Shown here: positions 5,619-30,608 of the stretch, piece by piece | How the letters are laid out: each line of letters starts with the position of its first letter | Numbering within the stretch: position 1 is the stretch's first letter | IMG/VR virus record: IMGVR_UViG_3300042465_009257 | Span: 62,001-126,000 of that record | DNA: 64,000 nt | Reading direction: 5' to 3' (one strand) | DNA from: a virus | Notes under the pieces: generated by a model | The model's database searches: none | The model's input: the letters and a program-made list of their open reading frames with translations, nothing else | Told to the model about the DNA's origin: nothing | Made by a program: the position numbers and the translations under genes

Positions 5619-6873
5619 TTTCAGAACCTTTAGAATAAATAATCTGTTGTAATCCCCAATCTGCGAAAAGTAGTCCTTGTCCCGCCTGGACATTTCCCAC
5701 GTAACCGGCATCTACGTGGTATTTATCAGGAGGGCATAGCGCTGGACAGATCATAACCCGAATTCCCTTAATGTCAAGAAGTTTTTCCGTATGAGTATGA
5801 CCCCCGAGAACAAAAAATTGTTCATAATTTGAAACCTCTTTTTGGTTTTCTCTCATCATAATCAATGGGAGGTCCGCCAATTTAATGCCGTCTGTGTGAG
5901 TAAAACAAATTAAAGTTTTCTCAAATCCAAAGTATTTTCTATTTAGAGGGCGATTGTCTACACTTACATTTTCGTGATTGCGGAAAAAGGCTTTAACGTA
6001 ACTACCTAGTGCATATTCTGTCAACCTAGCATGGTTCCCACAAACAATCATTACCTCAACCTTGAATTGTGACGCGAGTTTCTGAACTACGTCAGTGATC
6101 ATTTCGCAAACCTCATTGTAAAGAGTGTGCCAACTACAGGCCCCTTCTAATCTCGTCCCCTTTGTAGTGGTCACTTGTTCATTTTCAAAATGAATTAGAT
6201 CAGAACCGCATACTAGCATAACTGTCCCGATTTCTCCAACAGGCGCACTTTTAATCAGTTCGTCAACAGCGTCTTTGTAAACCTGTTTCGCGATTTCCAA
6301 GTTATAATCGCCCCATCCAGTTTCGCTCGACTTCGCGATTTTTCCTCCATGCCAGTCCTGAAGATTGAGGATGTATAGTTTCCCACCATCTTTCGGTTTG
6401 GTGTATTTGAATGATTTGGGGGCAATCTTTTCGGCATTTTTCTCAAAACCTTCCAGTAAAGACTCAAGAGCTTTCTCTTCCACCTTCTTACGGAACTCGG
6501 CCTTTACCGACCAATCACCTTTCCAAACTCCAACGCTACTCTTCACCATCTCCCAAACTTCTAAGTCTACCCGTGCAGCTTCAATTAATCCGTCTAGAGT
6601 ACTGACTCCCTTAATTTCTGCTACCGCAGTATCACCATGATCTTGGAAACCTTCAACATTCACGAATACAGTTTCAACCTCTATTCGAGGAATAGCTGCC
6701 CGCTCCTTCTTAGTCAGACTTTTATCAATCTTATTATAATAATCGTTACCTTGCGTTTTGCCAAGGCCGCGTTCGTGCCGGATATATTTACGAATATCTG
6801 TTGGATTTTCCCCAGCCAGGATCTTTCCTTTGATTTTGGCGGCGAAACTGTCAGGGTCGAATGTGTCGTGCAT
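5605..6873 (-). CDS. calcineurin-like metallophosphoesterase
   Basis: Two-metal phosphoesterase of about 422 residues. Motifs in order are DWHGGK (D-x-H), CGSDLIHFE (the GD-type Asp), IVCGNHARLTEY (GNH), FTHTDG and LGGHTHTEK (GHxH), which together supply the full metal site. The N-terminal 150 residues are charged and specific to this group. I chose the ATG at 6873, not the in-frame TTG at 6948, because the latter lies inside the upstream gene and because a near-perfect promoter ends 7 nt before the ATG. The substrate is unknown; nuclease (SbcD/Mre11-like) or nucleotide phosphatase roles are both possible. Confidence 0.85.
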   Translation of the reverse strand: MHDTFDPDSFAAKIKGKILAGENPTDIRKYIRHERGLGKTQGNDYYNKIDKSLTKKERAAIPRIEVETVFVNVEGFQDHGDTAVAEIKGVSTLDGLIEAARVDLEVWEMVKSSVGVWKGDWSVKAEFRKKVEEKALESLLEGFEKNAEKIAPKSFKYTKPKDGGKLYILNLQDWHGGKIAKSSETGWGDYNLEIAKQVYKDAVDELIKSAPVGEIGTVMLVCGSDLIHFENEQVTTTKGTRLEGACSWHTLYNEVCEMITDVVQKLASQFKVEVMIVCGNHARLTEYALGSYVKAFFRNHENVSVDNRPLNRKYFGFEKTLICFTHTDGIKLADLPLIMMRENQKEVSNYEQFFVLGGHTHTEKLLDIKGIRVMICPALCPPDKYHVDAGYVGNVQAGQGLLFADWGLQQIIYSKGSEIKLI

Positions 6874-6880
6874 CGTGAAT

Positions 6881-6909
6881 ATTATACGGTTTATAAGAGA
6901 ATTAGTCAA
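6881..6909 (-). promoter_or_regulatory. sigma70-like promoter, predicted leaderless
   Basis: TTGACT (6904-6909), 17-nt spacer, TATAAT (6881-6886) on the minus strand. The ATG at 6873 begins 7 nt after the -10, so transcription should start at the start codon. The -35 lies over the stop region of the upstream gene. Confidence 0.8.
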
Positions 6910-7498
6910 TGCTCCATTGTTGGGCAATTGCTTCCGCCATTCCTTCAAAACTTTTAGAGCGAATTTTCCAACGATCTGGTCCTGGAGGAGCGCGGTGAAT
7001 AGCAGACCATAGTTTATGTTCTTCGGTTCCTTTAACAGGAGGAGTCAATTTATGAGTCGGAACTAGCGGGGGTAAATTCTTTAGCCAAAAACAAGTTGCC
7101 TTAAAGGCCAGATCGCCAAACCACCAAGGCTGAACAATACAATCTGGCTTTCGATAACGGCTCGACATAATACCAATTGGATTTTCTACCGCAATTTTGG
7201 GGATTGGAGCATTAATGAGTTTCATAAAAAACTCAATTGCTGCTTGTTGTGATCCATCTGCAATCTTTTGAGGAAACCATCTCGCGCCACTCACGCAAAG
7301 ATGAGTGCATTCGGGGTGAAAAATAGCAAGATCCCATCCATCTTCTAAATGATTCATCACATCATCTTGAATATGAAAAGGAGAACCGTCATCAGCGGGA
7401 AGAATGTCAAGGCTCCAAGCATCATGGCCAAGTTTTCTAAAAGCTTCCCGAATTGTTCCGCTTGATTCACAGCCAACGAGGATTTTAAGTTTTTTCAT
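6902..7498 (-). CDS. DNA cytosine methyltransferase-like protein
   Basis: A 198-residue Rossmann protein. The N-terminus (KILVGCESSGTIREAFRKLG) fits the cofactor-binding first motif of C5-methyltransferases. AIFHPECTHL sits where the catalytic PC loop is expected, with an inserted residue (P-E-C). VENPIGIMSSRYRKP matches the ENV/ENP motif. The IVQPWWFGDLAFKATCFW segment is typical of a phage-borne group usually annotated as cytosine-specific methyltransferase. It is too short for a full target-recognition domain, so activity is uncertain. The start codon overlaps the HNH gene stop (ATGA). Confidence 0.6.
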   Translation of the reverse strand: MKKLKILVGCESSGTIREAFRKLGHDAWSLDILPADDGSPFHIQDDVMNHLEDGWDLAIFHPECTHLCVSGARWFPQKIADGSQQAAIEFFMKLINAPIPKIAVENPIGIMSSRYRKPDCIVQPWWFGDLAFKATCFWLKNLPPLVPTHKLTPPVKGTEEHKLWSAIHRAPPGPDRWKIRSKSFEGMAEAIAQQWSID

Positions 7499-8130
7499 TT
7501 TTGTTTTGAATTTCTAATTTGCATTACCGCATCCTCAATATTCATTCCTTTTGTAGTGATTCTATATCTCAATTTTTCATAATCTACTTCTAAAGTCTCC
7601 GATAGCTCCACCATTGTAATTTCACGCCCTTGGTAATTAATAATATTATTATTCCTTTTATTTCTGCCCTGCTCTTTTAAAGATGACCATTTACAATTTT
7701 CAATACTGTATCCTTTATTATTATCTTTTCTATCTAAAGTTTTTCCTTCGGGCCTTTCCCCCATATCCAATAAAAATAAACTAAAATCTTTCCATCTTTC
7801 TTCTATGGTAATTCCTCTTCCTCCATAGTCTTTATACCTTTTCTTGTTTTTTTGATTGACTCTAGCCCACATTGATTCCCAAGATGAATAGGTTGGGCTT
7901 TTTATACTATTTTTAATATGCCCATGTTTAATACTTCTCTCTCCAATGTTATCCATGAATTCTTGAGCTAAACATCCGCAACTTTTTATTTTTCCGCTAG
8001 TTACACTCCACCGTAAATATTCCTTTTCTTTCCCGCAGTCACATTTAAAAAGATAAAGACGGTTTCCAACGTATTTTACTACTGTCAGTCGTTCAAATTT
8101 TAGCCCAGTTTGAAGATATTCTCTTGCCAT
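7495..8130 (-). CDS. HNH homing endonuclease
   Basis: A 211-residue free-standing phage HNH nuclease. It has an N-terminal Cys cluster (FKCDCGKEKEYL, KSCGCL). The core includes YSSWESMWARVNQKNKKRYK, then YGGRGI, LDRKDNNKGY and ENCKWSSLKEQGRN (the N...N/H metal part). A C-terminal helix-turn-helix-like NUMOD segment follows (GREITMVELSETLEVDYEKL). It lies between primase and methyltransferase-like genes, 4 nt after the former and overlapping the latter by ATGA, in the same orientation; it was probably inserted there. I chose the ATG at 8130; a longer TTG start would overlap the primase. Confidence 0.88.
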   Translation of the reverse strand: MAREYLQTGLKFERLTVVKYVGNRLYLFKCDCGKEKEYLRWSVTSGKIKSCGCLAQEFMDNIGERSIKHGHIKNSIKSPTYSSWESMWARVNQKNKKRYKDYGGRGITIEERWKDFSLFLLDMGERPEGKTLDRKDNNKGYSIENCKWSSLKEQGRNKRNNNIINYQGREITMVELSETLEVDYEKLRYRITTKGMNIEDAVMQIRNSKQK

Positions 8131-8134
8131 ATTT

Positions 8135-9058
8135 TTAATATTTAACGTCAAATTTATTTACCCAGTTTGAAATCTCTTCTTTATTCATCTCGCCAAAATC
8201 ACCTTTGCTTGGTGGGGCGTTGATAATTTTATCTGAAGAAAAAAAAGTAGAAAGCTTTATCTTTATTTTAGCAGCGGCGATTTGGCCCCTATTCTCCAAG
8301 CTGTCTGCATCATCATTCAGAGCTACGAAGATAGAGGTTGGGTTGATTTTTAATAAGAAGCTAAGTCTCGCCGCAGATAGAGACAACCCAAAATTACATA
8401 ATACATTCCAGTAGCCCGAATCACAAAGTTGCAATACATCTCCTATGCTTTCTACAATAATGATTTGACCAGTCTGCCGAATTGCTTCGATGTTCCTCTC
8501 AAATGCCGGGTAAATCCAATCACTCTTTGAGCCTTTAAGCTTCCATTTAACGACGCCCCTTTCTCCACGATTCAATGCGTCCCGTCCTGCCGCCCCAATC
8601 AATTTCCCCTTATCATTTCGGATCTTAAATACAATTCTTCCATAAAGGGGGCCATTTTGTGCTAAACCTGCCCCCATGTAATCTAATGTCTCTTTCGAAA
8701 TTCCGCGCCGCAAGAAGAAATCGTAGCTTTTTACCAAATCGGCGTAATCAGATTCTACTAGAAATTTTTGTACTTTTATCTTTTCCTTGTCTTGCTCTTC
8801 ATATTCGCCGTCATCAACATCAGTGCCCGTAAGCCACTTTTTTGCGTCGGCCTCGCTAATCTTTTTGCAAATAGAAACAAACTTTTCCCAAGTCAAGAAA
8901 CGAGATTCAATAGCATCCCAGACATTACTTTCGTAACACCAAGCACCATTAGGATTATTTCCGCCGCGATACTCGGTTGAGATTGCACAATAGTTGCCCC
9001 CAACATAGTTTACGGCAATACCTAGTCTATCTAGACGATTTCGGATTTTATCTAACAT
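8135..9058 (-). CDS. DNA primase (TOPRIM, DnaG-type without zinc domain)
   Basis: A 307-residue primase-like protein that should make primers for the replisome. The DnaG catalytic core is visible: RIVFKIRNDKGKLIGAAGRD, then a TOPRIM domain with IIIVESIGDVLQL (the catalytic Glu) and FVALNDDADSLENRGQIAA (the DxD-type acidic cluster). No CHC2 zinc finger is visible in the first 100 residues, so template recognition may differ or rely on another protein. Its neighbours include polymerase, exonuclease and, further upstream, the DnaB helicase. Confidence 0.8.
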   Translation of the reverse strand: MLDKIRNRLDRLGIAVNYVGGNYCAISTEYRGGNNPNGAWCYESNVWDAIESRFLTWEKFVSICKKISEADAKKWLTGTDVDDGEYEEQDKEKIKVQKFLVESDYADLVKSYDFFLRRGISKETLDYMGAGLAQNGPLYGRIVFKIRNDKGKLIGAAGRDALNRGERGVVKWKLKGSKSDWIYPAFERNIEAIRQTGQIIIVESIGDVLQLCDSGYWNVLCNFGLSLSAARLSFLLKINPTSIFVALNDDADSLENRGQIAAAKIKIKLSTFFSSDKIINAPPSKGDFGEMNKEEISNWVNKFDVKY

Positions 9059-9409
9059 TTATAAAGAAAATGGACTCCACTCTACACGATATCCCGCTTT
9101 TTGCAAATCTTCTACCATATTTTTTGCGGCAAATTCATTGTAACTATGTACCACAAATTCCTTAACATCGGGCTTATTAGCTGTAATAAATCTCACAACC
9201 TCTGAGCCAGTATTCTTCTCTGCGGGATTTTGATAAGCCTCTCCATTTAAATCATGATCTAAAGAAACGAGATCATACCGACCCTCTTTCAAAGCCTCAA
9301 TGCAATCTGCCGCGTTCCAAACCTGACGCAATTCATCACCCTGCTCTTTAGTTTGGAAGAACTTCGAGTGCCTGGACGAATCATCATCACAAAAAAGTAT
9401 TTTTTTCAT
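9059..9409 (-). CDS. cREC (cyclic-phosphate processing receiver) domain protein
   Basis: A 116-residue single-domain receiver-fold protein. ILFCDDDSSRH carries the acidic cluster, LVSLDHDLNG the phospho-acceptor-like Asp followed by HD, and FVVHSYNEFAAKNM the conserved HS. This pattern fits the cREC family found in phages and in defence or signalling contexts, not ordinary two-component regulators. The biochemical role is inferred for the family only. The stop abuts the primase start (TAA then ATG), so the two are co-translated. The plus-strand homing cassette lies immediately upstream. Confidence 0.75.
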   Translation of the reverse strand: MKKILFCDDDSSRHSKFFQTKEQGDELRQVWNAADCIEALKEGRYDLVSLDHDLNGEAYQNPAEKNTGSEVVRFITANKPDVKEFVVHSYNEFAAKNMVEDLQKAGYRVEWSPFSL

Positions 9410-9464
9410 ATTTGTTAAAATAAAATTTCAAATTGTTTTACGCTCCCTGTAACTAAAGGTATCT

Positions 9465-9620
9465 ATGAGATTAAAAATTGTTACCGAAAAATATCACTTC
9501 ACCTTTAGTAAGTCATTATCAGAATTGTTTAAGAGAATTGTTAAAGAGACTGACCTTTCTCAAATTCGCGTTATTGAGCGTGCCATCGAAGATTTCGCGG
9601 TTAAGAAGGGGGTAAAATAA
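9465..9620 (+). CDS. small ribbon-helix-helix (CopG/Arc-like) protein, cassette 1
   Basis: A 51-residue basic protein with the RHH layout: a short strand (KYHFTF), helix A (LSELFKRIVKE) and helix B (IRVIERAIEDFAVKKG). It is probably a dimeric DNA-binding repressor. It ends 1 nt before the GIY-YIG endonuclease start and should be co-transcribed with it. A homologue (21 of 51 aligned residues identical by eye) precedes the second GIY-YIG gene at 27571. Both share a CCTGTAA[CT]TAAA block just upstream of the ATG, a candidate operator or promoter part. Confidence 0.7.
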   Translation: MRLKIVTEKYHFTFSKSLSELFKRIVKETDLSQIRVIERAIEDFAVKKGVK

Positions 9621-9621
9621 T

Positions 9622-10620
9622 ATGAAGAAGGGTCGTGGAAATTACAGGCTAGACAATTATGTTTATCTATACTTAGATAATCGGAAGCTTGGTAAATGGG
9701 AATTTAGAGACTGGACTTTTCTTTATCAGCCATTTTATGTCGGACGCGGTCTTGATGATAGAATTAACGCACATACAAAGCCGTCTGAACTTTCTAAACC
9801 TTTTCGGAAATCTAGGATAATAAATAAAATAAGACGAGTTCTAGGGGAGGAGGTTATCCGATTTAAACTTTATGAAGATTTATCTTACCAAGAATCGGCG
9901 TTCCTCGAAAAGGATATAATTGCATTTTTTGGGAGAGAGAAAAATGGAGGTATTTTGGTTAATCTCTCTAAGGACGAATGGGACCGCCCGGCGAAAGAAC
10001 GAACTTCAAAAACCTCAAATTCAAGAGCGTTACCCACGAGTAAAAGAGTTAATCAATATTCTTTAGATGGAGTTTTTATAAAAACTTGGGAGTATTTAAC
10101 AGAAATAAGAAACTCTCTGAGAGGGAAAAGTCGAGGGATTGAGTATAGAATCAGAGAATGTTGCAGGGGCGAAAGAGATAACTGTGATGGTTTTATTTGG
10201 AAATATGAGGGGACTTCCCCTTACTCTCCTCCTCGCATTCCTCAGCCACACTCTAAACCTGTTTTTCAATATTTCAATGGGAATTTTGTAAAAAGTTATG
10301 AATCTGGTGTCGAGGCGGCATTACAAACCGGATTAAATCATAAAGCTATATCACTATGTTGTCTAGGAAAAACTAAGACATCAGGAGGTTTTCGGTGGTT
10401 TTTCGAATATGTAGGAGAATCTATACCTCCTCTTGCAGCCACTGTTCGAAAACTATACGGAAGAGGTGTCAACTGTTTCGATTTGGAAATGAACTTTCTT
10501 GAAAAATATATAAATATCAAGGATTTTTCAAGATCCAACTCTATAAATGAATCTGCGGGCTATCGCGCTGTAAATACTGGTTTACCCGTTAAGGGGTTTT
10601 ATGTAAAATACTCTTCATAG
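9622..10620 (+). CDS. GIY-YIG homing endonuclease with NUMOD repeats, cassette 1
   Basis: A 332-residue homing endonuclease. The GIY-YIG module is the divergent type with VYLYLDNRK and PFYVGRGLDDRINAH, and the catalytic Arg follows. The conserved Glu appears to lie in YQESAFLEKDI. After residue 135, three DNA-binding repeats follow: VNQYSLDGVFIKTWEYL, VFQYFNGNFVKSYES and VNCFDLEMNFLEKY. The middle of the repeats has the NUMOD1-like ending SGGFRWFFE. It is on the opposite strand to all flanking phage genes, as expected of an inserted selfish gene. Its target is presumably near the 9.4 kb or 10.6 kb junction. Confidence 0.85.
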   Translation: MKKGRGNYRLDNYVYLYLDNRKLGKWEFRDWTFLYQPFYVGRGLDDRINAHTKPSELSKPFRKSRIINKIRRVLGEEVIRFKLYEDLSYQESAFLEKDIIAFFGREKNGGILVNLSKDEWDRPAKERTSKTSNSRALPTSKRVNQYSLDGVFIKTWEYLTEIRNSLRGKSRGIEYRIRECCRGERDNCDGFIWKYEGTSPYSPPRIPQPHSKPVFQYFNGNFVKSYESGVEAALQTGLNHKAISLCCLGKTKTSGGFRWFFEYVGESIPPLAATVRKLYGRGVNCFDLEMNFLEKYINIKDFSRSNSINESAGYRAVNTGLPVKGFYVKYSS

Positions 10621-10623
10621 TTT

Positions 10624-10884
10624 TCATTTCGTTAATTTCTCAACCTCATTTAATTTTTTAATAATCTTCCCAACATTCTTAATTGCCGCTAGATCAACTT
10701 TAACATCATAAATCACTAAACCTTTTTTAAAAGAAATATTGATTCCAAATGCAGCATCAGCGCTAATCCAACCTCCGTCAAATTCCGCCCAAGCTAGGTC
10801 GTCGGCGTGACCGATTTTAGTAACTTTGATCCCGGCTGATATTAAGATTTCGTTAATTTGGGCAATGGTCGCTTCTGTATCCAT
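10624..10884 (-). CDS. hypothetical protein, 86 aa
   Basis: Unrecognised 86-residue protein: an N-terminal helix (IAQINEILISAGIKVTKIG), two strands around AWAEFDGGWI and INISFKKGLVIYDVKVDL, and a C-terminal helix rich in Lys. The fold looks alpha/beta. It is 3 nt downstream of another small hypothetical gene and ends just beyond the homing cassette, so it is the first phage gene on that side of the insertion. Confidence 0.5.
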   Translation of the reverse strand: MDTEATIAQINEILISAGIKVTKIGHADDLAWAEFDGGWISADAAFGINISFKKGLVIYDVKVDLAAIKNVGKIIKKLNEVEKLTK

Positions 10885-10887
10885 TTC

Positions 10888-11127
10888 CTACCAGTTATAA
10901 TAGCTAATAGATGGGGCATGAATGTCTGAGGCTGATTTACCAAGATAATGTTTCTCATCTTTATCAGCACCACAATCCGCAGAAAAATAAAGAAATCCAT
11001 CTTCATCAATTTTTAAATCTCCTCTCTGCCCATAATAGAATGTATCGTCGCCTGGGCTTCTATTGGAAAAATATGCCCTTGCCGAACCTACTTCCGAGAC
11101 TTTTTCGTAAAGTTTTTTTAAAGTCAT
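10888..11127 (-). CDS. hypothetical protein, 79 aa
   Basis: Unrecognised small protein beginning MTLKKLYEKVSEVG and containing FYYGQRGDLKIDEDGFLYFS. I start it at the ATG 11127; an upstream TTG at 11154 would run into the preceding gene. No motif of known function is visible. It is part of a string of small minus-strand genes. Confidence 0.5.
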   Translation of the reverse strand: MTLKKLYEKVSEVGSARAYFSNRSPGDDTFYYGQRGDLKIDEDGFLYFSADCGADKDEKHYLGKSASDIHAPSISYYNW

Positions 11128-11137
11128 TATATTGGCT

Positions 11138-11614
11138 TTATTTCCAATTTTCAATTTCTTCTTCCTGTGCTGGAGTTAAAGTCGTTTCCAATTCACCAAT
11201 TCTATCATTTACATCAATTTCTGGAAATCCAAAAATCATTTCATGAAATTCTTTCACATGAGGCAGGTTTCGATCTGTTTGGTCTAAAGTAAGACGTAGA
11301 CCTGTTCCCATCATCAGATCGTCAATATCTTTTTCAAAATCATTAATTTCAATATAGTATCGCTCCCCTTCAGCGTCCCAGCTAATTACTTCATTTTCTT
11401 CGCCATAAATTGTTGTAATATTTTCTCGAACAACTTCTGTGCCAGTTCTTAAACTATCAATCATTTCTTGGGGAACATATTGGCTTGCCTCCGCCATTTG
11501 ATCCTTAGTGAGAGAGATACGATATGTACAAGGCTCTGATAAAAGAAATTGTTTAATTGAGTTTGGAAGGTCGCAGCTTCTTCCAATTGTCGGCGATAGC
11601 ATAAGTTTTGTCAT
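11138..11614 (-). CDS. hypothetical acidic protein, 158 aa
   Basis: Unrecognised 158-residue acidic protein. A central part (TYRISLTKDQ ... WDAEGERYYIEINDFEKDI ... MGTGLRL) matches in order a segment of the next upstream gene (TYRHSAP ... WDKNGWRFYIQPETLEDL ... KETGFEAG), suggesting distant paralogy. A TTGACA lies upstream at 11663-11668 but without a convincing -10 box. ATG start at 11614. Confidence 0.55.
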   Translation of the reverse strand: MTKLMLSPTIGRSCDLPNSIKQFLLSEPCTYRISLTKDQMAEASQYVPQEMIDSLRTGTEVVRENITTIYGEENEVISWDAEGERYYIEINDFEKDIDDLMMGTGLRLTLDQTDRNLPHVKEFHEMIFGFPEIDVNDRIGELETTLTPAQEEEIENWK

Positions 11615-11685
11615 AGATTATATTTGATTGAGCTTGATTACCGTAGTCTGATTTTTTCTATTGTCAAATGGGCTTTCAGATTTAT

Positions 11686-12234
11686 TTAGTCGTCTGGATT
11701 GCATTCAGAGCATCCTGGGTCCCCACAATTACTTTCTCCACCTTGGTTTTCGTCCATAAGGAAGCTATCCATCAGTTGGAGGATTACAAAAGGTTCTTCC
11801 GGTAAAGGCATTCCAATCTGATTTTCACTCCAAGCCTCTTCGTCATCATCTTCCCATTCTTCCGGGTCAATGACATTAATTCCTGCTTCAAAACCTGTCT
11901 CTTTAACGAAGTTCTCTAAATCTTCCAAGGTCTCAGGCTGAATATAGAAGCGCCAGCCATTTTTATCCCAGTGCGTAAATGCGACCTCCTTCATTTCCAT
12001 ATCGCCGTCTTTCGTAAGCGAAACCATCTTCTGCATATCTTTTACTACCTCACGGGAGTTTTTCAGATCTTCTTTTGTCAAAATTTCAGAAGGTGCTGAG
12101 TGGCGATAAGTAGCTCTTTCTTTAAATGCTAATTCTTTTACATGGTCAAGCTGTTGCGAGGAATTAAAAATTTGGGATGTGATAAACCATTTTTTTGTTA
12201 CGGTTTTTTTAGGTTTCTGGATTTTTGCGGGCAT
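11686..12234 (-). CDS. hypothetical acidic protein with Cys-rich tail, 182 aa
   Basis: A 182-residue protein with a basic N-terminus (PAKIQKPKKTVTKK), a very acidic middle (EEWEDDDEEAW) and a C-terminal cysteine knot (GESNCGDPGCSECNPDD) that could bind zinc. Function unknown. It is possibly related to the 158-residue protein encoded downstream. It has its own strong promoter, spaced to give a leader of about a dozen nucleotides, unlike the leaderless set. Confidence 0.55.
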   Translation of the reverse strand: MPAKIQKPKKTVTKKWFITSQIFNSSQQLDHVKELAFKERATYRHSAPSEILTKEDLKNSREVVKDMQKMVSLTKDGDMEMKEVAFTHWDKNGWRFYIQPETLEDLENFVKETGFEAGINVIDPEEWEDDDEEAWSENQIGMPLPEEPFVILQLMDSFLMDENQGGESNCGDPGCSECNPDD

Positions 12235-12253
12235 ATTAAAGTTTGACTAATTT

Positions 12254-12282
12254 AGTATATAGAGTTTTTAAGGATTGGTCAA
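12254..12282 (-). promoter_or_regulatory. sigma70-like promoter with short leader
   Basis: TTGACC (12277-12282), 17-nt spacer, TATACT (12254-12259) on the minus strand. The ATG at 12234 is 19 nt after the -10. This is the exception among the strong promoters of the window, since all others sit 5-9 nt from the start codon. Confidence 0.75.
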
Positions 12283-12290
12283 TTTTAAGA

Positions 12291-13811: not shown

Positions 13812-13857
13812 CAATAATTAATTTTACAATAAAGGTTTTCTATGAAAACTAAAATTT

Positions 13858-14472: not shown

Positions 14473-14508
14473 ATTTATTCCATTTAGATTAGGATTTACT
14501 TTGCCATC

Positions 14509-14649: not shown

Positions 14650-14654
14650 TTTAA

Positions 14655-14683
14655 AGTATATAACCGTTTTGGGTGATTGTCAA
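14655..14683 (-). promoter_or_regulatory. sigma70-like promoter, predicted leaderless
   Basis: Perfect -35 TTGACA (14678-14683), 17-nt spacer, TATACT (14655-14660). The ATG of the 46-residue gene at 14649 begins 5 nt after the -10. The -35 overlaps the stop codon of the upstream nuclease gene. Confidence 0.8.
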
Positions 14684-15551: not shown

Positions 15552-15554
15552 GGG

Positions 15555-17368: not shown

Positions 17369-17397
17369 ATTATATAGGAAATTTAAAATTTGGTCAA
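17369..17397 (-). promoter_or_regulatory. sigma70-like promoter, predicted leaderless
   Basis: TTGACC (17392-17397), 17-nt spacer, TATAAT (17369-17374) on the minus strand, 8 nt before the ATG at 17360. It lies in the 41-nt gap after the thymidylate synthase gene. Confidence 0.8.
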
Positions 17398-19075: not shown

Positions 19076-19318
19076 TTATTTACTTAAGGTGTTGGCAACA
19101 AGCCATTCTTTAAATTTCGCTTTATCCTCCGCAGAATCGTCCCAATCATCTCTAAGAGATTTAATAGGCTCAATACTAGTAACTCTAGTGGAATAGTTTT
19201 CTGTCTTAGCCTTACGGACAACAACTAATGAACGGTAGTCTTCGCGGCTTTGAATTTCAGATGGGCAAAGTTTCCGTTTTGGCTTTTCCAGTGGTTTCGT
19301 TAGTTCTTTATGAGTCAT
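19076..19318 (-). CDS. hypothetical basic protein, 80 aa
   Basis: An 80-residue protein. Its N-terminus MTHKELTKPLEKP nearly repeats that of the MazG-like protein, pointing to a local duplication of a gene start or a shared N-terminal peptide. The rest is charged. Upstream, TTGACT at 19346-19351 is followed by repeated TAG units, and no good -10 box is present. Confidence 0.5.
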   Translation of the reverse strand: MTHKELTKPLEKPKRKLCPSEIQSREDYRSLVVVRKAKTENYSTRVTSIEPIKSLRDDWDDSAEDKAKFKEWLVANTLSK

Positions 19319-19358
19319 ATTACACTACTACTACAGATTCAGAATAAGTCAACAAATT

Positions 19359-19817: not shown

Positions 19818-19826
19818 ATCACGCCT

Positions 19827-20212: not shown

Positions 20213-20224
20213 AATATTAAATTT

Positions 20225-20314
20225 TGGTGGGAGATGAGGGAATTGCACCCATCGCCGCCTTCCACTTTGTTATAATGGCAACGGATTTACAGTCCGCCAA
20301 GTGGGGCATCGCCC
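20225..20314 (-). tRNA. tRNA-Tyr-like element (anticodon GTA), degenerate D and T arms
   Basis: A 90-nt minus-strand element. A 7-bp acceptor stem pairs GGGCGAT with ATCTCCC (one C-U mismatch), followed by discriminator A and encoded CCA. A standard anticodon arm, GCGGA-CTGTAAA-TCCGT, carries GTA (Tyr). A long class II-type variable region and a T loop TGCAATT follow. Abnormal features: only 10 nt separate the acceptor and anticodon stems, so the D arm is truncated; only three T-stem pairs form; and CCACTT in the D region is complementary to AAGTGG in the variable region. It is therefore either a decayed tRNA-Tyr or a tRNA mimic in the leader of the next gene. Confidence 0.55.
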
Positions 20315-20321
20315 GTATTCA

Positions 20322-20350
20322 AGTATACGGCGGGAATTTTGAAAAGTCAA
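20322..20350 (-). promoter_or_regulatory. sigma70-like promoter of the tRNA-like element
   Basis: TTGACT (20345-20350), 17-nt spacer, TATACT (20322-20327). The -10 ends 7 nt before the first base of the tRNA-like acceptor stem, so the transcript should begin at or next to the mature 5' end. Confidence 0.75.
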
Positions 20351-20375
20351 GAGAAATTATTATGCCAACATCAGT

Positions 20376-20422: not shown

Positions 20423-20432
20423 GCTTTGGATT

Positions 20433-22079: not shown

Positions 22080-22082
22080 AAA

Positions 22083-23069: not shown

Positions 23070-23078
23070 ATTTAAAAT

Positions 23079-23486: not shown

Positions 23487-23497
23487 TTAAATTTTAT

Positions 23498-23827: not shown

Positions 23828-23842
23828 ATTAATTTTTAAAAT

Positions 23843-24214: not shown

Positions 24215-24264
24215 GGCTGGCAAATGATATTACAGTAGTTCCTAAAAGGCTGGAAATATTTTCT

Positions 24265-24858
24265 TTAAGAAATTGAAAATTCAGAGCGGATTGTTAAATT
24301 AAATTCTGGAATTGAGATAGATGTGGCGATGCCTAGCTCTAAAGCTTTTTCGCTGGTAATCAACCAGTCATCCAATAAATTATTCTTTAATTGCTTTTTA
24401 ATCCAATCCTTGGGTTTCTTAAGATGCTTACTAAGAACTTCATTCATTAAATCATTTTCCTTACCGTGCCACTCAACGACTTGTCGAGCCTCTTGTAGAT
24501 TTCCCTCAAAGCCTAGTTGAGTACTGTGAAATAAGAGTGAAGAGAATTTCCCCATGTACCGGTGATCACAATACATGAAAACACAGCATCCTGCTGAAGC
24601 TGCTGTTCCAGATACTACGGCAGCAAATTGCATTCCCTTCTCACGATAACAATCCATGATTGACATAAAGCCAAACAAAATTGCTGCACTGCCTCCATCG
24701 CTTTGAATAAAGATGGGCATCAAAGGCTGAGAATTCTCATGAGCGCGATGCAGCGTCTTTGAGAATGCCTGCAAAGACCTTTCTGAAAAATCGGTAAGAT
24801 GAAAAACACCCGGCACTGCGACATCTCTGACTTGAGGCGATTGACTAATATTCCACAT
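24265..24858 (-). CDS. ClpP-like serine protease (S14)
   Basis: A 197-residue ClpP-fold protein. The nucleophile Ser is in SGTAASAGCC, the His in SLLFHSTQLGF, and the Asp candidate in DDWLITSEKALELGIA, so the triad is present. IFIQSDGGSAAILFGFMSIM matches the oxyanion-hole loop. Phage ClpP-like enzymes usually mature heads and sit beside portal and capsid genes; here it sits between a glycosyltransferase and nucleotide genes, so it may process something else. The partner is unknown. Confidence 0.78.
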   Translation of the reverse strand: MWNISQSPQVRDVAVPGVFHLTDFSERSLQAFSKTLHRAHENSQPLMPIFIQSDGGSAAILFGFMSIMDCYREKGMQFAAVVSGTAASAGCCVFMYCDHRYMGKFSSLLFHSTQLGFEGNLQEARQVVEWHGKENDLMNEVLSKHLKKPKDWIKKQLKNNLLDDWLITSEKALELGIATSISIPEFNLTIRSEFSIS

Positions 24859-24895
24859 AATTATTTTTTATTATTCTCTATTTTAGATATAAATT

Positions 24896-25987
24896 TTAAA
24901 AATCCAAAAGACAATCAACTGTATTTTTCACAGAAAACTTATCTGCCAAAGCTTTTCCAACCTCTGGATCTGGAACATCCATATTTAAGGCTTGTTCCAT
25001 TCCTGCAATTCCAGCGTCCTCATCCCAAGTAAAAATATTACCTTGGTTGTATGGCTGGCCTTTTTGGAAAAACATTCCATCTGTTGCGTCTTCTTTTCCA
25101 GAAGGCTCAACAAAAATAGAGTTCGTATCAGAACAATAGTCAGTATGAGCATGAGCACGTAGAACTACGCCTCTTTTGCCTAAACAGCGAGTTTGTAACA
25201 ATGGTAGTCCAAACCCTTCTCCACCGCTTAGTCCTAGATCGATATCAATTACATTTAGAGCTTGGTTGAACTCTTCCTTTGTAAGAAAACCAAATAGATT
25301 TACATTCCAAGGAAGCTCTCTTCCAATTTCCCGCTCAATAATTTGCTTGTGTGCTGCAATATGATTTTTAGGGTCTATTCCGCCCATGATGAATGGATTA
25401 AAGACATGGCAATGTAGCCGATATTTCTTATCCCCTCCAAAGCGTTTTACCCAAGCTCCGATTGTCTTGGTCGTCCACTTGCGCTTTTCAAGTTTGCCTA
25501 AAACTGAGAAGATTGTGACATCTTCAAGGCCCTTTCGTGGGGCATCTACGTGAGAAAACAGACTGGCGTCAAAGAAGTTAGGAGTTACGCCAGCCTGGAG
25601 ACCTTTAGCCTCAAAAGTTTGTTTAGAAAAATTCGATGGAACTAGAATCCTCGAATACTGAGCCATGATATTCTTTTCAGTATCCGTAATGGAGTCGATT
25701 TCATGAACTGTATAAAGAGTATTTATATCAGACAGTCTCGATTGGCTACCATTAATGTGCCAAACCTTAATTGCTGGTTCAGACTTTTTATAATTAGTTA
25801 ATGCTTTTCCACTGCAATACTGGAACCACTGTGGAAACCCTTCTGGTAAATTGGCATATCCAAAATCAGGATTTCCAATAATGAAGATATTCGGGGTCAA
25901 ACCTCTTTTAAAAAGTTCAACGGCAATACCCATTCCGACACTGCCAAGGCCGGTTTGATTTAGAGGGAGTTCAATACTAAACGTCAT
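24896..25987 (-). CDS. glycosyltransferase, GT-B fold (GT4-like)
   Basis: A 363-residue glycosyltransferase. The N-terminus has a Gly-rich loop (NQTGLGSVGMGIAVELFKRG); the C-terminal nucleotide-sugar domain shows FSVLGKLEKRKW and LGLSGGEGFGLPLLQ, the GEGFGLP/E motif of GT4 enzymes. It could glucosylate modified DNA bases or alter host surface sugars; the window does not decide this. Its promoter puts the -10 box 5 nt before the ATG. Confidence 0.8.
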   Translation of the reverse strand: MTFSIELPLNQTGLGSVGMGIAVELFKRGLTPNIFIIGNPDFGYANLPEGFPQWFQYCSGKALTNYKKSEPAIKVWHINGSQSRLSDINTLYTVHEIDSITDTEKNIMAQYSRILVPSNFSKQTFEAKGLQAGVTPNFFDASLFSHVDAPRKGLEDVTIFSVLGKLEKRKWTTKTIGAWVKRFGGDKKYRLHCHVFNPFIMGGIDPKNHIAAHKQIIEREIGRELPWNVNLFGFLTKEEFNQALNVIDIDLGLSGGEGFGLPLLQTRCLGKRGVVLRAHAHTDYCSDTNSIFVEPSGKEDATDGMFFQKGQPYNQGNIFTWDEDAGIAGMEQALNMDVPDPEVGKALADKFSVKNTVDCLLDF

Positions 25988-25992
25988 GGTTG

Positions 25993-26021
25993 ATTCTACT
26001 TAAAGTTTTAGGATTGGTCAA
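25993..26021 (-). promoter_or_regulatory. sigma70-like promoter, predicted leaderless
   Basis: TTGACC (26016-26021), 17-nt spacer, TAGAAT (25993-25998) on the minus strand, 5 nt before the glycosyltransferase ATG at 25987. The -35 overlaps the 3' end of the upstream gene. Confidence 0.75.
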
Positions 26022-26424
26022 TCTCTGTTTCTTCGATTTGAATGGTTTTGTCAAACTTTTTGATAAGAGCAAAAGATGAATCTAATCCAAATAAAGTTTC
26101 TGCCCAAGTTGAAATCCAGCCTTCAGTATTTTCAAGGGTTTCCCAAGAAGGGAGGTATAAAACTTCAGGAGGTCCATGCGGCTCAAAAACTTCAAAGCAT
26201 TGAATAATCCAATCCATTCCTGGTTTTAGAGAAGTGAAAATCCGCGCATCTTCTTCCATCGCTAAACTTTCTAAGTTGAATACTGAAACAGTCACAGTAA
26301 ATTTCTCATGCTGATCCTCAATCAATTGCGTCATCACCTGATATCGTATTCCACCATCAATAGATACCAAAAATGGTTCCCGATGGGAGAAACAGGCTGC
26401 ACGGACTAGGTTGGATTGAGACAT
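26008..26424 (-). CDS. hypothetical protein, 138 aa
   Basis: Unrecognised 138-residue alpha/beta protein starting MSQSNLVRAACFSHREPFLV. I chose the ATG at 26424 because a TTGACA promoter ends 9 nt before it; the frame is open further up but that would overlap most of the membrane-protein gene. The content is strand-rich (IRYQVMTQLI, KFTVTVSVFNL) with an acidic C-terminus. Confidence 0.55.
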   Translation of the reverse strand: MSQSNLVRAACFSHREPFLVSIDGGIRYQVMTQLIEDQHEKFTVTVSVFNLESLAMEEDARIFTSLKPGMDWIIQCFEVFEPHGPPEVLYLPSWETLENTEGWISTWAETLFGLDSSFALIKKFDKTIQIEETEIDQS

Positions 26425-26702
26425 TTGTTTTTTACGATAAACGCGATTATTGGACTTGTCAATGGAATATATAATGGAAAACCTGCGATAAGGCAAATCC
26501 CGAGAGATAGCCAAAGATTATGGCACAATTGGCATTTCCACAAGTTGAAAATTAAATCTGCACAAATTTTTTCAGCGGCGCGACGACTTTGCATCCAAAT
26601 CAGAAGCCTAGTTCTGAAATCTTCAAAAAGTGTAGACTCATGGGTTACAAAATTTAAATAAGACAGTAAAATGCCTACGCAAATAATTAGTTCTAAATTC
26701 AT
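26406..26702 (-). CDS. small membrane protein, DUF1360-like
   Basis: A 98-residue membrane protein with an N-terminal segment (LELIICVGILLSYLNFV) and a second hydrophobic region (LWLSLGICLIAGFPLYIPLT) ending with IIAFIVKN. WKCQLCHNLWLSL resembles the CPFC.GFW signature of DUF1360-type phage and sporulation membrane proteins. The start ATG overlaps the kinase stop (ATGA), which supports translation. Role unknown; holin-like function is possible but unproven. Confidence 0.55.
   Translation of the reverse strand: MNLELIICVGILLSYLNFVTHESTLFEDFRTRLLIWMQSRRAAEKICADLIFNLWKCQLCHNLWLSLGICLIAGFPLYIPLTSPIIAFIVKNKCLNPT
26434..26462 (-). promoter_or_regulatory. sigma70-like promoter inside upstream gene
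   Basis: Perfect -35 TTGACA (26457-26462), 17-nt spacer, weak -10 TATCGT (26434-26439), 9 nt before the ATG at 26424. It lies within the 3' end of the membrane-protein gene. Confidence 0.6.
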
Positions 26703-27388
26703 ACATCTTGTAAACCTTCTTTTAGCTCCGAGTCAACCCATTTTTCCATTTTTCTCACCATCTCGCCGCCTTCTTTCCACAAACCAGAATTTTCCTTCAT
26801 TACACGTTCCACCTCTAAACGTGGAATCGACTCTCCATTCTCAAATTTGCTAAAATCATGCCAGCGGAATTGAACATCAGCAGCTTTGCGGATTAGTGGG
26901 TCATTTTTCTCTTCCTCGCTGTTCGCTGGCTCTAGAACATGGAATTGCCCATACCAGTCCTTGCTGTCATATCTTTCAACGTGGACGATTTTCCCACCAT
27001 TAGATTTTACAAATCCAAGCTCGTCGCCGCCGCCAAATTCCGCAAAACGCAAATCCGTAATAAATCTTACTTGCGGTCCTTCTGGGGAAAGGAGAGTATC
27101 TCGGATTTTATTCAACCAATACTGCCCCTTACTATCATTTCTGCGGAGCTTGCCATATTGAACAAGCAATGGCCGAACCCTTGTCTTCTCTTCAGTAACC
27201 TCGGTAAACGCCGAAAATCCAAACTTATCAGTTATAAAATGGTCCAGGTCTCTCTTCAATTCGTCGGCGAAAGCCCATCGCCCGCAGGTGATTCCTTCTT
27301 CTTTGAGAAAATCAGAGGCGAATCTGTAAAAAGAGTCCTTGCCCGATCGCCCGACCCCCGAAAGGGCTATAATTTTAAATGATTTCAT
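26699..27388 (-). CDS. deoxynucleoside monophosphate kinase, intact copy
   Basis: A 229-residue T4 gp1-type dNMP kinase, which phosphorylates dNMPs for the reductase/ThyX pathway. The P-loop GVGRSGKDS lies at residues 11-19, CGRWAFADELKRDL follows, and VRFITDLRFAEF plus GKIVHVERYDS fit the core. I start it at the ATG 27388: a frame from TTG 27424 begins inside the -35 box of its own promoter. A diverged 5' stump of a second copy lies at 28510-28674, across the inserted homing cassette. Confidence 0.82.
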   Translation of the reverse strand: MKSFKIIALSGVGRSGKDSFYRFASDFLKEEGITCGRWAFADELKRDLDHFITDKFGFSAFTEVTEEKTRVRPLLVQYGKLRRNDSKGQYWLNKIRDTLLSPEGPQVRFITDLRFAEFGGGDELGFVKSNGGKIVHVERYDSKDWYGQFHVLEPANSEEEKNDPLIRKAADVQFRWHDFSKFENGESIPRLEVERVMKENSGLWKEGGEMVRKMEKWVDSELKEGLQDV

Positions 27389-27394
27389 TCCTTT

Positions 27395-27424
27395 ATTATA
27401 GGTGGAAACGAAAGAAAAAGTCAA
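27395..27424 (-). promoter_or_regulatory. sigma70-like promoter, predicted leaderless
   Basis: TTGACT (27419-27424), 18-nt spacer, TATAAT (27395-27400), 6 nt before the kinase ATG at 27388. The same arrangement, also with an 18-nt spacer, precedes the truncated kinase copy. Confidence 0.8.
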
Positions 27425-27570
27425 CCGACTGTCTCAAAATGATTATTTTCGCGAAAAAAAATGGTTGAGGCTTTCGGATTTGACCAAAAAACGGGCAGGA
27501 AAAGAATCATTAATAATTTAAAATAAATTGTTCCCTTTTCTTTACCATTCCTGTAATTAAACATATAATT

Positions 27571-27729
27571 ATGAATCACCGAATTAAAACTAAACGCTAT
27601 AATTTTTGCTTTGACCCGAAAATTGACGAACTCTTGAAAAAAATTAAAGCAGAAACTTCAATAGGATTAACGAAAATTGTGGAGTTAGCTGTTGTTGATT
27701 TTGCCGAAAAGAAAGGAGTTTCTTTATGA
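27571..27729 (+). CDS. small ribbon-helix-helix (CopG/Arc-like) protein, cassette 2
   Basis: A 52-residue basic protein: strand KRYNFCF, helix A IDELLKKIKAET, helix B LTKIVELAVVDFAEKKG. It is homologous to the RHH gene at 9465 (21 of 51 residues identical by eye) and in the same position relative to a GIY-YIG gene. Its TGA overlaps the endonuclease ATG (ATGA), so the two are translationally coupled. It is a likely autoregulator of the selfish cassette. Confidence 0.72.
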   Translation: MNHRIKTKRYNFCFDPKIDELLKKIKAETSIGLTKIVELAVVDFAEKKGVSL

Positions 27730-28523
27730 TCGGTGTCGTTTTTAACATGAATATCGAATCTCTTGCGATTTGCCCAAGAACCAACGGAATTTACAAAATC
27801 ACAAATACGAAAACAGGAAGATTCTATATTGGCCGAGCAGAATACAAGAAAGGTTTTTTTCGCCGGTGGTATCACCATAGGTGGCAACTTAGAAAAAATA
27901 TCCATGAAAATCCTCATTTGCAAAACTCTTATAACAAATATGGAGAGTCTTGTTTCACCTTCGAGATTCTTGAAATTAAAGACTATGGAGATCCGTTAAT
28001 AGATCTAGAGTCAGAATATATCATAAATTTAAAAGCCATGTACTTTGAAGACGGGTATAATCTTACGAATGAAAGGTTTGCCGCAAAATATCCTAAAATA
28101 TACAGAGAAAATCATCATAACTCAAAAGAATTTGAACTGCTTGACCCAGAAGGAAATTTAATTAAAGGCAGGAATTTAAGTCAATTCTGTGAAGAACTAG
28201 ATGTGGGCGTAGGAGCCATGTGGGATGTCATCCACGGAGATAGAAAATCCTACAAAGGATTCAAATCTCCCAATCCCGAATTTCACGTAGTTAAAAAAGA
28301 GTATCGCTTGCTCTCGCCCGAAAAAGAATTGTTCGTATTTGACAACGCCGCAGAATTCGCGAGAAAGATAGGGGTAAACAAACGTTCTATACACAAAGTA
28401 TTAAAAGGGGAAAGGTCTAATGCCGAGGGCTACCATCTTGAAAATCCATTACCAGAACATCAAAGAAATCTTGATAATTATTTCAATAGGAAGCATCTCT
28501 CTGATCGAATCAACTTTCAATGA
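27726..28523 (+). CDS. GIY-YIG homing endonuclease with NUMOD repeats, cassette 2
   Basis: A 265-residue endonuclease. The catalytic module shows NGIYKITNTKTGRFYIGRAE, FFRRWYHHRWQLRK (catalytic Arg and following basic helix), NKYGESCFTFEILE and DLESEYI (the conserved Glu). The C-terminal half has NUMOD-type helix-turn-helix repeats (LSQFCEELDVGVGAMWDVIH; AAEFARKIGVNKRSIHKVLK). A second ATG nine codons in is an alternative start. Its 3' end runs 14 nt into the truncated kinase copy, so the kinase gene was the insertion target. Confidence 0.9.
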   Translation: MIGVVFNMNIESLAICPRTNGIYKITNTKTGRFYIGRAEYKKGFFRRWYHHRWQLRKNIHENPHLQNSYNKYGESCFTFEILEIKDYGDPLIDLESEYIINLKAMYFEDGYNLTNERFAAKYPKIYRENHHNSKEFELLDPEGNLIKGRNLSQFCEELDVGVGAMWDVIHGDRKSYKGFKSPNPEFHVVKKEYRLLSPEKELFVFDNAAEFARKIGVNKRSIHKVLKGERSNAEGYHLENPLPEHQRNLDNYFNRKHLSDRINFQ

Positions 28524-28674
28524 ATCCGTCCAAATCCTTTTTTAGCTCATCAGCAAAAGCCCAGCGGCCACATGAAATTCCCTCCGTTTCTAGAAATTCC
28601 GAAGCGAAGCGGTAAAAAGAGTCCTTCCCCGCCCGACCGACGCCAGAGATTCCGATAATTTTAAATGGTTGCAT
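28510..28674 (-). pseudogene. 5' stump of a second dNMP kinase gene
   Basis: A 54-residue frame, MQPFKIIGISGVGRAGKDSF onward, that matches the first 52 residues of the intact kinase at 41 positions and then stops (TGA) at the end of the homing endonuclease gene. It keeps the P-loop and its own promoter but lacks about three quarters of the enzyme. It is most simply the recipient allele left behind when the cassette and a donor kinase gene were copied in. A short peptide may still be made. Confidence 0.8.
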
Positions 28675-28680
28675 TGATGA

Positions 28681-28710
28681 ATTGTATCGGGCTTTTGTGC
28701 GGAAAGTCAA
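28681..28710 (-). promoter_or_regulatory. sigma70-like promoter of the kinase stump
   Basis: TTGACT (28705-28710), 18-nt spacer, TACAAT (28681-28686), 6 nt before the ATG at 28674. It is homologous in layout to the intact kinase promoter at 27395-27424. Confidence 0.7.
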
Positions 28711-28764
28711 TCTTAGAATTTTTAAAATTAAATTCCTTTTCTGCATATTCGCCTGTAAAAGAAC

Positions 28765-28793
28765 TTGACTTATTTGATTTCCGACTTTTTAAT
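28765..28793 (+). promoter_or_regulatory. sigma70-like promoter, predicted leaderless, plus strand
   Basis: TTGACT (28765-28770), 17-nt spacer, TTTAAT (28788-28793), 7 nt before the ATG at 28801. It is the only plus-strand member of the promoter series and drives the polymerase-like gene, divergent from the kinase stump promoter. Confidence 0.7.
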
Positions 28794-28800
28794 TACTGTG

Positions 28801-30345
28801 ATGCCTAAAATGAATTACTCTCTGGTAAACCCCGATAAAACGATTCTCAAAAATGAAAACATGATTCGAACAATAGGGTATGGGGGAGAGGGGACCATTG
28901 CTGGAGGGAGGGAGAGGGTGTCTCTTTATAAGGGGAGGTTTAGAGAAGTACAAGAAGTAATAGAGGGGAGGTCTATACTTAGTAATGATGTAGATTGGGA
29001 ATTTAAAGAGAAATCTTTCTTAATCCCTTCAGACTTTTCTAATAATGAGCTTCTTAGCCTTGGCTTGAAAGAGAAACATATTGCGAATGCTATGGTTTTT
29101 CTTTCCTTATTAAGGATTTCAACAAAGTACAAAGAGGTTGTTCTGAGGGATGTTAATCCATTCAGTAGAATTAACAGTATAGTTCTTTCGGAATTTATGT
29201 TAACTCTTGGCTCCGGTACGAAAGACATGTTGAAAAAATTAAGCATTGCACAATGGATTGAGATTGACCATTCTTACCAAGCAGGAATCAAATCAAAAGG
29301 ATATCGTCTTGGGAAAAGATTTGAAAACTCAAAATGGATTTCCGCAAATTGGAAAGAAAGTCTTGAAAAATTTGTCCCAGGTGTCCTGCAAGGAGGTTAT
29401 ATTTCTAGGAGCAGAGATGTTTTGTATGGACTCTGGGATAGAGCTTGTATATATTTTACCAACTGGCAGGCTATGGCTGACGGCCCTTTAAAGGAAATCT
29501 GCAAAAGAACGTCAGAAATAGGCCGTAAATTGATCGTAAGATACTGTGAGGCTCTGACTAAGGAAATTAATACAAACGCTGTAGAGCATATCAAATGCCC
29601 AGCAAATCAAGCATCTGTAGAAAATGGATGGACACTAGAGAAACAAATTCAAAATTATTGGGATTCTTTGTCGTATTTTGACGGTAAAAGTTTTTCTGTT
29701 ACCTGTCACGACGAAAGGTTTAAGTTTTTTACTTACCGTTTGTATTCAAATGTTGTAAATTTAAAATCTGAGTTTCGCCAATTTCTAGAACTAGATGGAC
29801 AGCAAATGGTGAACGTGGATATCCAATCCTGCCAAGTGGCTTTACTGGCGACATTCTATAACACTGAAGATTTAGTGGAAAAAGAGAAATTCATCAAAAT
29901 TATTTGCGAAAAAGATATTTATCTATTTATCGCGGGAGATAAAATTGAGCGGAAACAAGCGAAATCTGACTTTTTCTATATCATGTTCGACAAGAATTGT
30001 AACCAAAAAGGAGAAACTTGCCGCCGATTTAAAGAGGAATTTCCAATCTTAACTCAAAGGATTTACGACGAAAAGAAAAGAAATGGTTATAAAAGTGTAG
30101 CTCGTCTAATGCAGACAAAAGAAGCTTCTATTATGATATTAGGAGCATTGAATAAACTCCTTTTCGTAAATGAAATTGAAGCTTTTTCAATCCACGACTC
30201 TATCTTTTGTCTTCTTAAAGACGTAAAATTAGTAGAAGAAACTATCCGCTCCTTCTTTACAAATCAAATGGGCTTCTGCCCAGCAATTAAAGTGGAAGCG
30301 CCCAGAGTGGATGAATCTGCCAACCGTATTGGGCAGCAATCATAA
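28801..30345 (+). CDS. compact family-A-like polymerase of unknown role
   Basis: A 514-residue protein whose C-terminal half carries the palm/fingers motifs of single-subunit family A polymerases. Motif A is VNVDIQSCQVALLA (Asp 340). Motif B is ERKQAKSDFFYIMFDKN (Arg 384, Lys 388), preceded by DIYLFIAG. A QTKEASIMILGAL helix and motif C FSIHDSIFC (Asp 466) follow. No 3'-5' exonuclease domain is visible and the first 280 residues match nothing I know. The same motif pattern occurs in uncharacterised proteins of bacteria and phages (established only as a recollection of the pattern). I start it at ATG 28801; the in-frame TTG 28765 is the -35 box. It is on the opposite strand to neighbouring phage genes and overlaps the next one at its 3' end by 59 nt. 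Confidence 0.65.
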   Translation: MPKMNYSLVNPDKTILKNENMIRTIGYGGEGTIAGGRERVSLYKGRFREVQEVIEGRSILSNDVDWEFKEKSFLIPSDFSNNELLSLGLKEKHIANAMVFLSLLRISTKYKEVVLRDVNPFSRINSIVLSEFMLTLGSGTKDMLKKLSIAQWIEIDHSYQAGIKSKGYRLGKRFENSKWISANWKESLEKFVPGVLQGGYISRSRDVLYGLWDRACIYFTNWQAMADGPLKEICKRTSEIGRKLIVRYCEALTKEINTNAVEHIKCPANQASVENGWTLEKQIQNYWDSLSYFDGKSFSVTCHDERFKFFTYRLYSNVVNLKSEFRQFLELDGQQMVNVDIQSCQVALLATFYNTEDLVEKEKFIKIICEKDIYLFIAGDKIERKQAKSDFFYIMFDKNCNQKGETCRRFKEEFPILTQRIYDEKKRNGYKSVARLMQTKEASIMILGALNKLLFVNEIEAFSIHDSIFCLLKDVKLVEETIRSFFTNQMGFCPAIKVEAPRVDESANRIGQQS

Positions 30346-30571
30346 GGGCATCTTTTAGAGGGATAGGAACTTGTGTCGGCCCGAAAGCTCCATCTTCGTC
30401 CTCAAAACCCGCTGACCAGCAAATATCATTTCCATTAAATTTTCCGAACTGTGGGCGAAGGCTCATCAAGTAAACGGTCATGTTTGGATCTGGGAAATCT
30501 TCTTTGTCAACGTCTCTCCAGTAATCTGGTGCCGCGACATTATCCCACAAATTTACTTTTTGATCTTCCAT
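30287..30571 (-). CDS. hypothetical protein, 94 aa
   Basis: Unrecognised 94-residue protein starting MEDQKVNLWDNVAAPDYWRD. An acidic beta-rich middle (ICWSAGFEDEDGAFGPTQVP) is followed by a helix (LKDALMIAAQYGW). Its last 59 nt overlap the convergent polymerase-like gene, so its C-terminus may have been changed by that insertion. It has its own leaderless-type promoter. Confidence 0.55.
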   Translation of the reverse strand: MEDQKVNLWDNVAAPDYWRDVDKEDFPDPNMTVYLMSLRPQFGKFNGNDICWSAGFEDEDGAFGPTQVPIPLKDALMIAAQYGWQIHPLWALPL

Positions 30572-30579
30572 ACCGCTTG

Positions 30580-30608
30580 ATTCTAAATTATTTTTTAAAT
30601 AAAGTCAA
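30580..30608 (-). promoter_or_regulatory. sigma70-like promoter, predicted leaderless
   Basis: TTGACT (30603-30608), 17-nt spacer, TAGAAT (30580-30585), 8 nt before the ATG at 30571. The -35 overlaps the stop codon of the nuclease gene upstream. Confidence 0.72.

Follow-up and report, generated by a model that had tools for sequence, protein, structure and literature searches.

Results

Promoter sites in the window

The window analysed here is a stretch of 64,000 nucleotides, bases 62001-126000 of the virus record IMGVR_UViG_3300042465_009257, which is 173,358 bases long in full and is called G000 below. Within the window, TTGAC-type promoter sequences are found close upstream of genes for a SbcD-like exonuclease, a glycosyltransferase-like protein, a dNMP kinase-like protein and its P-loop paralogue, a 514-aa protein and several short ORFs, and of a tRNA-like element (Table 1). 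No Pfam match was found for the 514-aa protein (28801-30345, + strand), the C-terminal half of which looked polymerase-like by eye. A phage-encoded DNA polymerase III alpha subunit is also present in the window (61-3163, - strand).

It was originally predicted that nine of these genes carry near-consensus promoters placed so that the mRNA would begin at or near the start codon. When read directly, all nine have TTGAC[TAC], a spacer of 17 or 18 nt, a hexamer matching TATAAT at 4-6 of 6 positions, a gap of 5-9 nt and an ATG. The nine genes are real members of the class, but the list was incomplete, as the gene at 19318 in the window also fits; it is a subset of the set in the whole record, which consists of 25 genes by exact TTGAC, plus 26424 and 30571, the two listed genes that were started elsewhere or missed by our gene caller. 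The gene at 12234, named as the exception, does have a longer gap.

The tRNA-like element was also expected to have its own promoter, and one was found. No tRNA was called at 20225-20314 by ARAGORN with default settings or by Rfam at the gathering threshold; ARAGORN gave a match only at a relaxed threshold, as Gly(tcc), and the Rfam match to Tymo_tRNA-like was sub-threshold. A second tRNA-like 3' half lies immediately upstream of the gene starting at 27373 of G000.

Table 1. Promoter sites and associated elements in the window (window coordinates).
Feature	Position	Strand	Gap (nt)	Downstream gene and remarks
TTGACT-N17-TATAAT	6881..6909	-	7	ATG 6873; SbcD-like DNA repair exonuclease, 422 aa, 5605-6873
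TTGACC-N17-TATACT	12254..12282	-	19	12234; exception, predicted leader about 12 nt
TTGACA-N17-TATACT	14655..14683	-	5	ATG 14649; 46-aa ORF
TTGACC-N17-TATAAT	17369..17397	-	8	ATG 17360; 62-aa ORF
TTGACT promoter	19322..19352	-	3	ATG 19318; 80-aa ORF; -10 assignment (TAGTGT) and gap uncertain
tRNA-like element	about 20225..20314	-		CCACCA end; GTA in anticodon-like loop
TTGACT-N17-TATACT	20322..20350	-	7	gap is to acceptor stem of tRNA-like element
TTGACC-N17-TAGAAT	25993..26021	-	5	ATG 25987; glycosyltransferase-like, 24896-25987
TTGACA-N17-TATCGT	26434..26462	-	9	ATG 26424; TTGAC at 38; weakest of the set
TTGACT-N18-TATAAT	27395..27424	-	6	ATG 27388; dNMP kinase-like
TTGACT-N18-TACAAT	28681..28710	-	6	ATG 28674; 54-aa P-loop paralogue of 27388
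TTGACT-N17-TTTAAT	28765..28793	+	7	ATG 28801; 514-aa protein
TTGACT-N17-TAGAAT	30580..30608	-	8	ATG 30571; 94-aa ORF
TTTCC-N17-TGTAA	47462..47488	-		ATG 47441, TGTAA starts 25 nt before it; 1546-aa protein
TTTCC-N17-TGTAA	before 9465	+
TTTCC-N17-TGTAA	before 24214
TTTCC-N17-TGTAA	before 49416
TTTCC-N17-TGTAA	before 51268
TTTCC-N17-TGTAA	before 52476

Distance of the promoter elements to gene starts

The two strands of G000 together contain 422 TTGAC sequences. Upstream of the 223 starts called by a home-made hexamer caller, on which all start statistics given here rest, it was found at 33-37 nt in 25 cases against 1.36 expected (P=3.6e-23), and no other distance stands out. A TANNNT sequence at a spacer of 16-18 nt accompanies 20 of the 25 start-proximal TTGAC but only 48 of the 397 others (Fisher P=3e-13). 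The class combines TTGACa and TATAAT-like hexamers at a spacing of 16-18 nt, the sigma70 housekeeping pattern. The placement of TANNNT by which leaderless genes are recognised, with the first T some 10-14 nt upstream of the start codon, occurs above chance.

The position-matrix scan proposed with the original prediction was carried out on the full record, using a generic matrix for E. coli sigma70 promoters, untrained on G000. In G000 the distance from -10 box to start peaked narrowly at 3-8 nt and was near background elsewhere; three relatives showed a TTGAC peak (see below). A -10 box at 3-8 nt was present at 24 of 223 starts (10.8%) and at 36 of 4984 other ATGs (0.7%), a 15-fold difference, so that the motif is not equally frequent at random positions. 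The same procedure gave 0 near sites in T4 and crAss001 (50 kb each), and near sites at 54 bacterial ribonucleotide-reductase loci were at background (5 vs 4.9). That this placement before starts arose by chance is excluded.

The TTGAC arrangement was found at 2% of starts with a same-strand upstream gene less than 25 nt away, at 28% of tandem starts with gaps of 25-59 nt and at 35% of divergent starts, which indicates promoter-like behaviour and not ribosome-binding sites. The nine genes, and most others in the window, had been noted to lack clear Shine-Dalgarno sequences; this holds for the whole record, in which Shine-Dalgarno-like tetramers precede 9% of starts compared with 13% in a control stretch, without enrichment, and 57% of T4 starts. 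The ribosomal protein S21 gene is absent from four of these phages.

Products of the class include a SbcD-like nuclease, dNMP-kinase-like P-loop proteins, a pyrimidine-dimer glycosylase, a RIIA-like ATPase, a PP2C-like protein and an endolysin-like glucosaminidase. None of the 25 starts lies between 92 and 160 kb of G000, where the virion genes and terminase are located, and it is from this layout, with the class away from the virion genes, that an early timing is suggested.

AATAA or AAATAA lies 6-10 nt upstream of 40 starts in G000 (3.5 expected), and A/T-rich start regions are commonest at operon-internal genes (24% of those with a tandem gap below 25 nt). These sequences could possibly act as a start signal other than Shine-Dalgarno, or be explained in part by stop codons of the genes before them.

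Predicted transcription start and start codons

The gap between -10 box and ATG in G000 is 3 nt in 2 genes, 5 in 10, 6 in 6, 7 in 4 and 8 in 3, and the first T of the -10 box lies mostly 11-14 nt before the start codon; in the relatives G002 and G003 the gaps are mainly 6-8 nt. Transcription usually starts at the 7th base after the -10 box, therefore a gap of 6 would put +1 on the A of the ATG. With a gap of 5 nt (about 10 genes), the A is the 6th base, so the predicted start may be off by 1-2 nt, and by this simple rule a start at A is not distinguishable from one at G of the ATG. A pyrimidine at -1, as expected for a start at A, was not enriched in G000 (14/25 vs 106/198) and was enriched only modestly in the other phages. 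A transcription start at or near the ATG, as suggested by this geometry, is the weakest step of the leaderless argument.

For several genes the start codon itself is fixed. P-loop, NAD-binding and PP2C motifs begin within about 8-15 residues of several of the ATGs, such as MKSFKIIALSGVGRSGKDSF in the gene at 27388 and MQPFKIIGISGVGRAGKDSF in that at 28674, and the P-loop near the N-terminus fixes ATG 27388 as the start. For nine of the 25 genes the first 40 codons contain no alternative in-frame start, and homologues of some of the proteins align from residue 1. It had been pointed out that the in-frame TTG of the -35 element can be mistaken for a start codon at 27424 and 28765. As the mechanical ORF list does start there, this correction stands.

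A second promoter class

Another pair of elements, TTTC (usually within AATTTCC) and TGTAA, was found before 21 genes of G000. The two elements are spaced by 22 nt from start to start, and TGTAA lies 13-48 nt from the ATG. Genome-wide, TTTCC-TGTAA pairs show one sharp spacing peak, at 22. Many virion genes and small-ORF cassettes lie behind sites of this class, and TTTC(C)-N17-TGTAA is probably a late promoter. By its geometry it would mostly give mRNAs with short leaders, about 35 nt long at most, and with this class mostly leadered, leaderless expression would not be the sole mode of G000. A sigma70 region-2 protein is encoded at 54694-55194 of G000 (Pfam E 1e-12; PHROG RNA polymerase sigma factor) and is a natural candidate for reading these sites.

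Relatives and host

Relatives were taken from the neighbours of G000 by ribonucleotide reductase in IMG/VR, among which are contigs with many further proteins in common with G000, mostly at 24-40% identity. With the terminase and one virion protein as queries, only relatives of 98-100% identity were found; such near-identical contigs give no independent evidence for the promoter pattern. TTGAC at 33-37 nt was found 16 times in G002 (1.1 expected), 13 times in G003 (0.8) and 13 times in G012 (1.05). There was no TTGAC peak at this distance in G001 and G010, and G011 and G015 showed the pattern in no excess. G001, G002 and G003 each encode a DnaB helicase homologue, 24-26% identical to that of G000, with TTGAC 36-41 nt before the ATG; the G000 gene has a TGTAA-type site in its place. 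G002 also has AAAAA tracts 19-23 nt before its starts (50 instances, 8 expected).

In G012 (IMGVR_UViG_3300042514_001858), 43 genes have a TAAATA with its first base exactly 11 nt before the start, and at 9-13 nt TAAATA was found before 54 starts (0.77 expected). It was present at 53% of divergent starts and 17% of close tandem starts. The protein encoded at 93900-94340 of G012 matches the PHROG late sigma transcription factor (E 7e-25) and is T4-like. In T4 the late promoter TATAAATA spans -13 to -6 and is read by gp55. TAAATA at 11 nt, together with the T4 geometry, would therefore place +1 at the A of the ATG in G012, which suggests that its early and late classes may both be leaderless. 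G012 resembles the T4 late promoters in its TAAATA core and late sigma factor match, whereas T4 late genes generally have leaders and Shine-Dalgarno sites.

Among the matches listed from IMG/VR-wide scans for the pattern, most loci have Shine-Dalgarno sites and there is no comparable leaderless peak. Strict consensus promoters at leaderless and leadered distance numbered 110 and 105 in 59 genomes from the phylum of G021 (a MAG of Candidatus Paceibacterota), and 123 and 111 in 21 genomes from the phylum of G025 (Paenibacillus). As the totals are similar in both, neither phylum is singled out as that of the host. Genomes with relatives of the ribonucleotide reductase include those of Patescibacteria, Bacteroidota, Bacillota and haloarchaea, a range not diagnostic of the host. 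Bacteroidetes promoters have a -33 TTTG and a -7 TAnnTTTG element. The latter was not seen as a consensus in the class (A48/T36 at position 5 of the -10 box and G at position 7 in only 24%), although the boxes compared were picked with a TANNNT bias and a few single sites do resemble TAnnTTTG. The canonical sigma70 consensus argues against a Bacteroidota host.

Discussion

The best explanation for the TTGAC class, and one we hold to be likely, is leaderless transcription (or transcription with leaders of 0-3 nt), probably early, by a sigma70-type polymerase. Promoters of the sigma70/sigmaA type would place the transcription start at, or within about 3 bases of, the AUG, and leaders would be lacking from the mRNAs of the first genes in these units, most of which are non-virion genes and probably early. 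The 5'-terminal AUG would then be recognised directly by the ribosome; Shine-Dalgarno pairing would not be used by the phage, nor presumably by its host. The use of the host sigma factor, the exact transcription start, the timing and the leaderless translation are inferred from the sequence. The leaderless reading made originally is supported by the promoter-like placement, the lack of Shine-Dalgarno sequences, the near-absence of the sites inside operons and their recurrence in divergent relatives.

The promoters could be real and yet give very short leaders of 1-8 nt, or initiate transcription slightly within the AUG, with translation through, for example, A-rich start regions; the description as leaderless would then hold only approximately. 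Gaps of 7-9 nt do permit leaders of 1-3 nt, and AATAA-type sequence 6-10 nt before starts is in excess genome-wide (40 vs 3.5 expected); however, the A/T-rich start regions peak at operon-internal genes (24%) and not in the TTGAC class, and the -10-to-ATG peak is narrow, making this reading unlikely. A further question is which sigma factor is used. As G000 encodes a sigma70 region-2 protein of its own, the TTGAC-N17-TATAAT-like sites could be read by this phage factor instead of the host factor, and be middle or late instead of early. We regard this as quite improbable, because the sites fit the bacterial housekeeping consensus and the TTTCC-N17-TGTAA class before virion genes is the more natural target of a phage sigma factor.

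If the ATGs were mis-assigned and downstream starts were used, the mRNAs would have ordinary leaders. Several of the short ORFs have other in-frame starts within 30 codons, but the motifs close to the N-terminus, the nine genes without an alternative in 40 codons and the homologues aligning from residue 1 make this very unlikely. The starts also come from a simple home-made caller, which could be thought to have produced the pattern, or it could be chance; this was tested and rejected on the statistics (P=4e-23), the independent matrix, the controls (other ATGs and other phages) and the recurrence in three relatives, and its probability is negligible.

Apart from cI, phage lambda uses Shine-Dalgarno sites. 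Its cI, mentioned as a leaderless phage gene in PMC3160421 and PMC12340547, is a single gene with an mRNA starting at the AUG, whereas some 25 genes of G000 are predicted to be expressed in this way. In Deinococcus-Thermus and Actinobacteria, leaderless mRNAs arise from a -10 box adjoining the ORF without a Shine-Dalgarno sequence (PMC3160421, PMC12340547), and in bacterial leaderless genes TANNNT has its first T about 12 nt upstream of the start codon (PMC3160421). The -10 boxes of G000 are similarly near the ORF, also without Shine-Dalgarno sequences. However, those are bacterial and mostly GC-rich genomes, while the phages here are AT-rich and show no Shine-Dalgarno enrichment anywhere; and the D. 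radiodurans polymerase needs little sequence beyond the -10 box, while a full TTGAC -35 element at strict spacing is present here.

A further parallel is the Thermus thermophilus phage phiYS40, most middle and late mRNAs of which are leaderless according to the account of Sevostyanova et al. (2007) in PMC3594737. Both are large phages with many mRNAs without leaders, although for G000 this is a prediction from sequence. Going by that account, the leaderless class of phiYS40 is middle and late, whereas that of G000 would be the TTGAC class outside the virion module, and the assignment appears to be reversed, with the timing in G000 deduced from gene order. The principle of leaderless expression is thus already known, and G000 would differ in its full -35 element and in this apparent reversal.

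The arrangement could allow leaderless gene expression to be recognised in uncultured phages from sequence alone, and start-codon calls can be corrected where annotators take the -35 TTG as the start. The many natural fusions of promoter and AUG could also provide material on how ribosomes initiate at 5'-terminal AUGs. More tentatively, and about as readily doubted as believed, there could be a loose group of large phages that have abandoned Shine-Dalgarno leaders and hard-wired promoter and start codon together, both early and late, as would be the case for the T4-type late promoter of the 43 genes in G012. On this reading, leaderless translation would be the main expression route for the first genes of transcription units. 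If both phases were leaderless, a phage programme would be built on a mode usually deemed exceptional, and this could be a clue to hosts with ribosomes favouring leaderless mRNAs.

A minor observation concerns the small-ORF cassettes. These repeats, at 27571-28523 (+) and 9465-10620 (+) of the window and at 59669-60917 (+) of G000, pair a short ORF of 51-52 aa with one of 265-363 aa after it, in each case behind a second-class promoter or a close variant. The cassette at 27571-28523 (+) encodes a ribbon-helix-helix protein and a GIY-YIG/NUMOD-type homing endonuclease.
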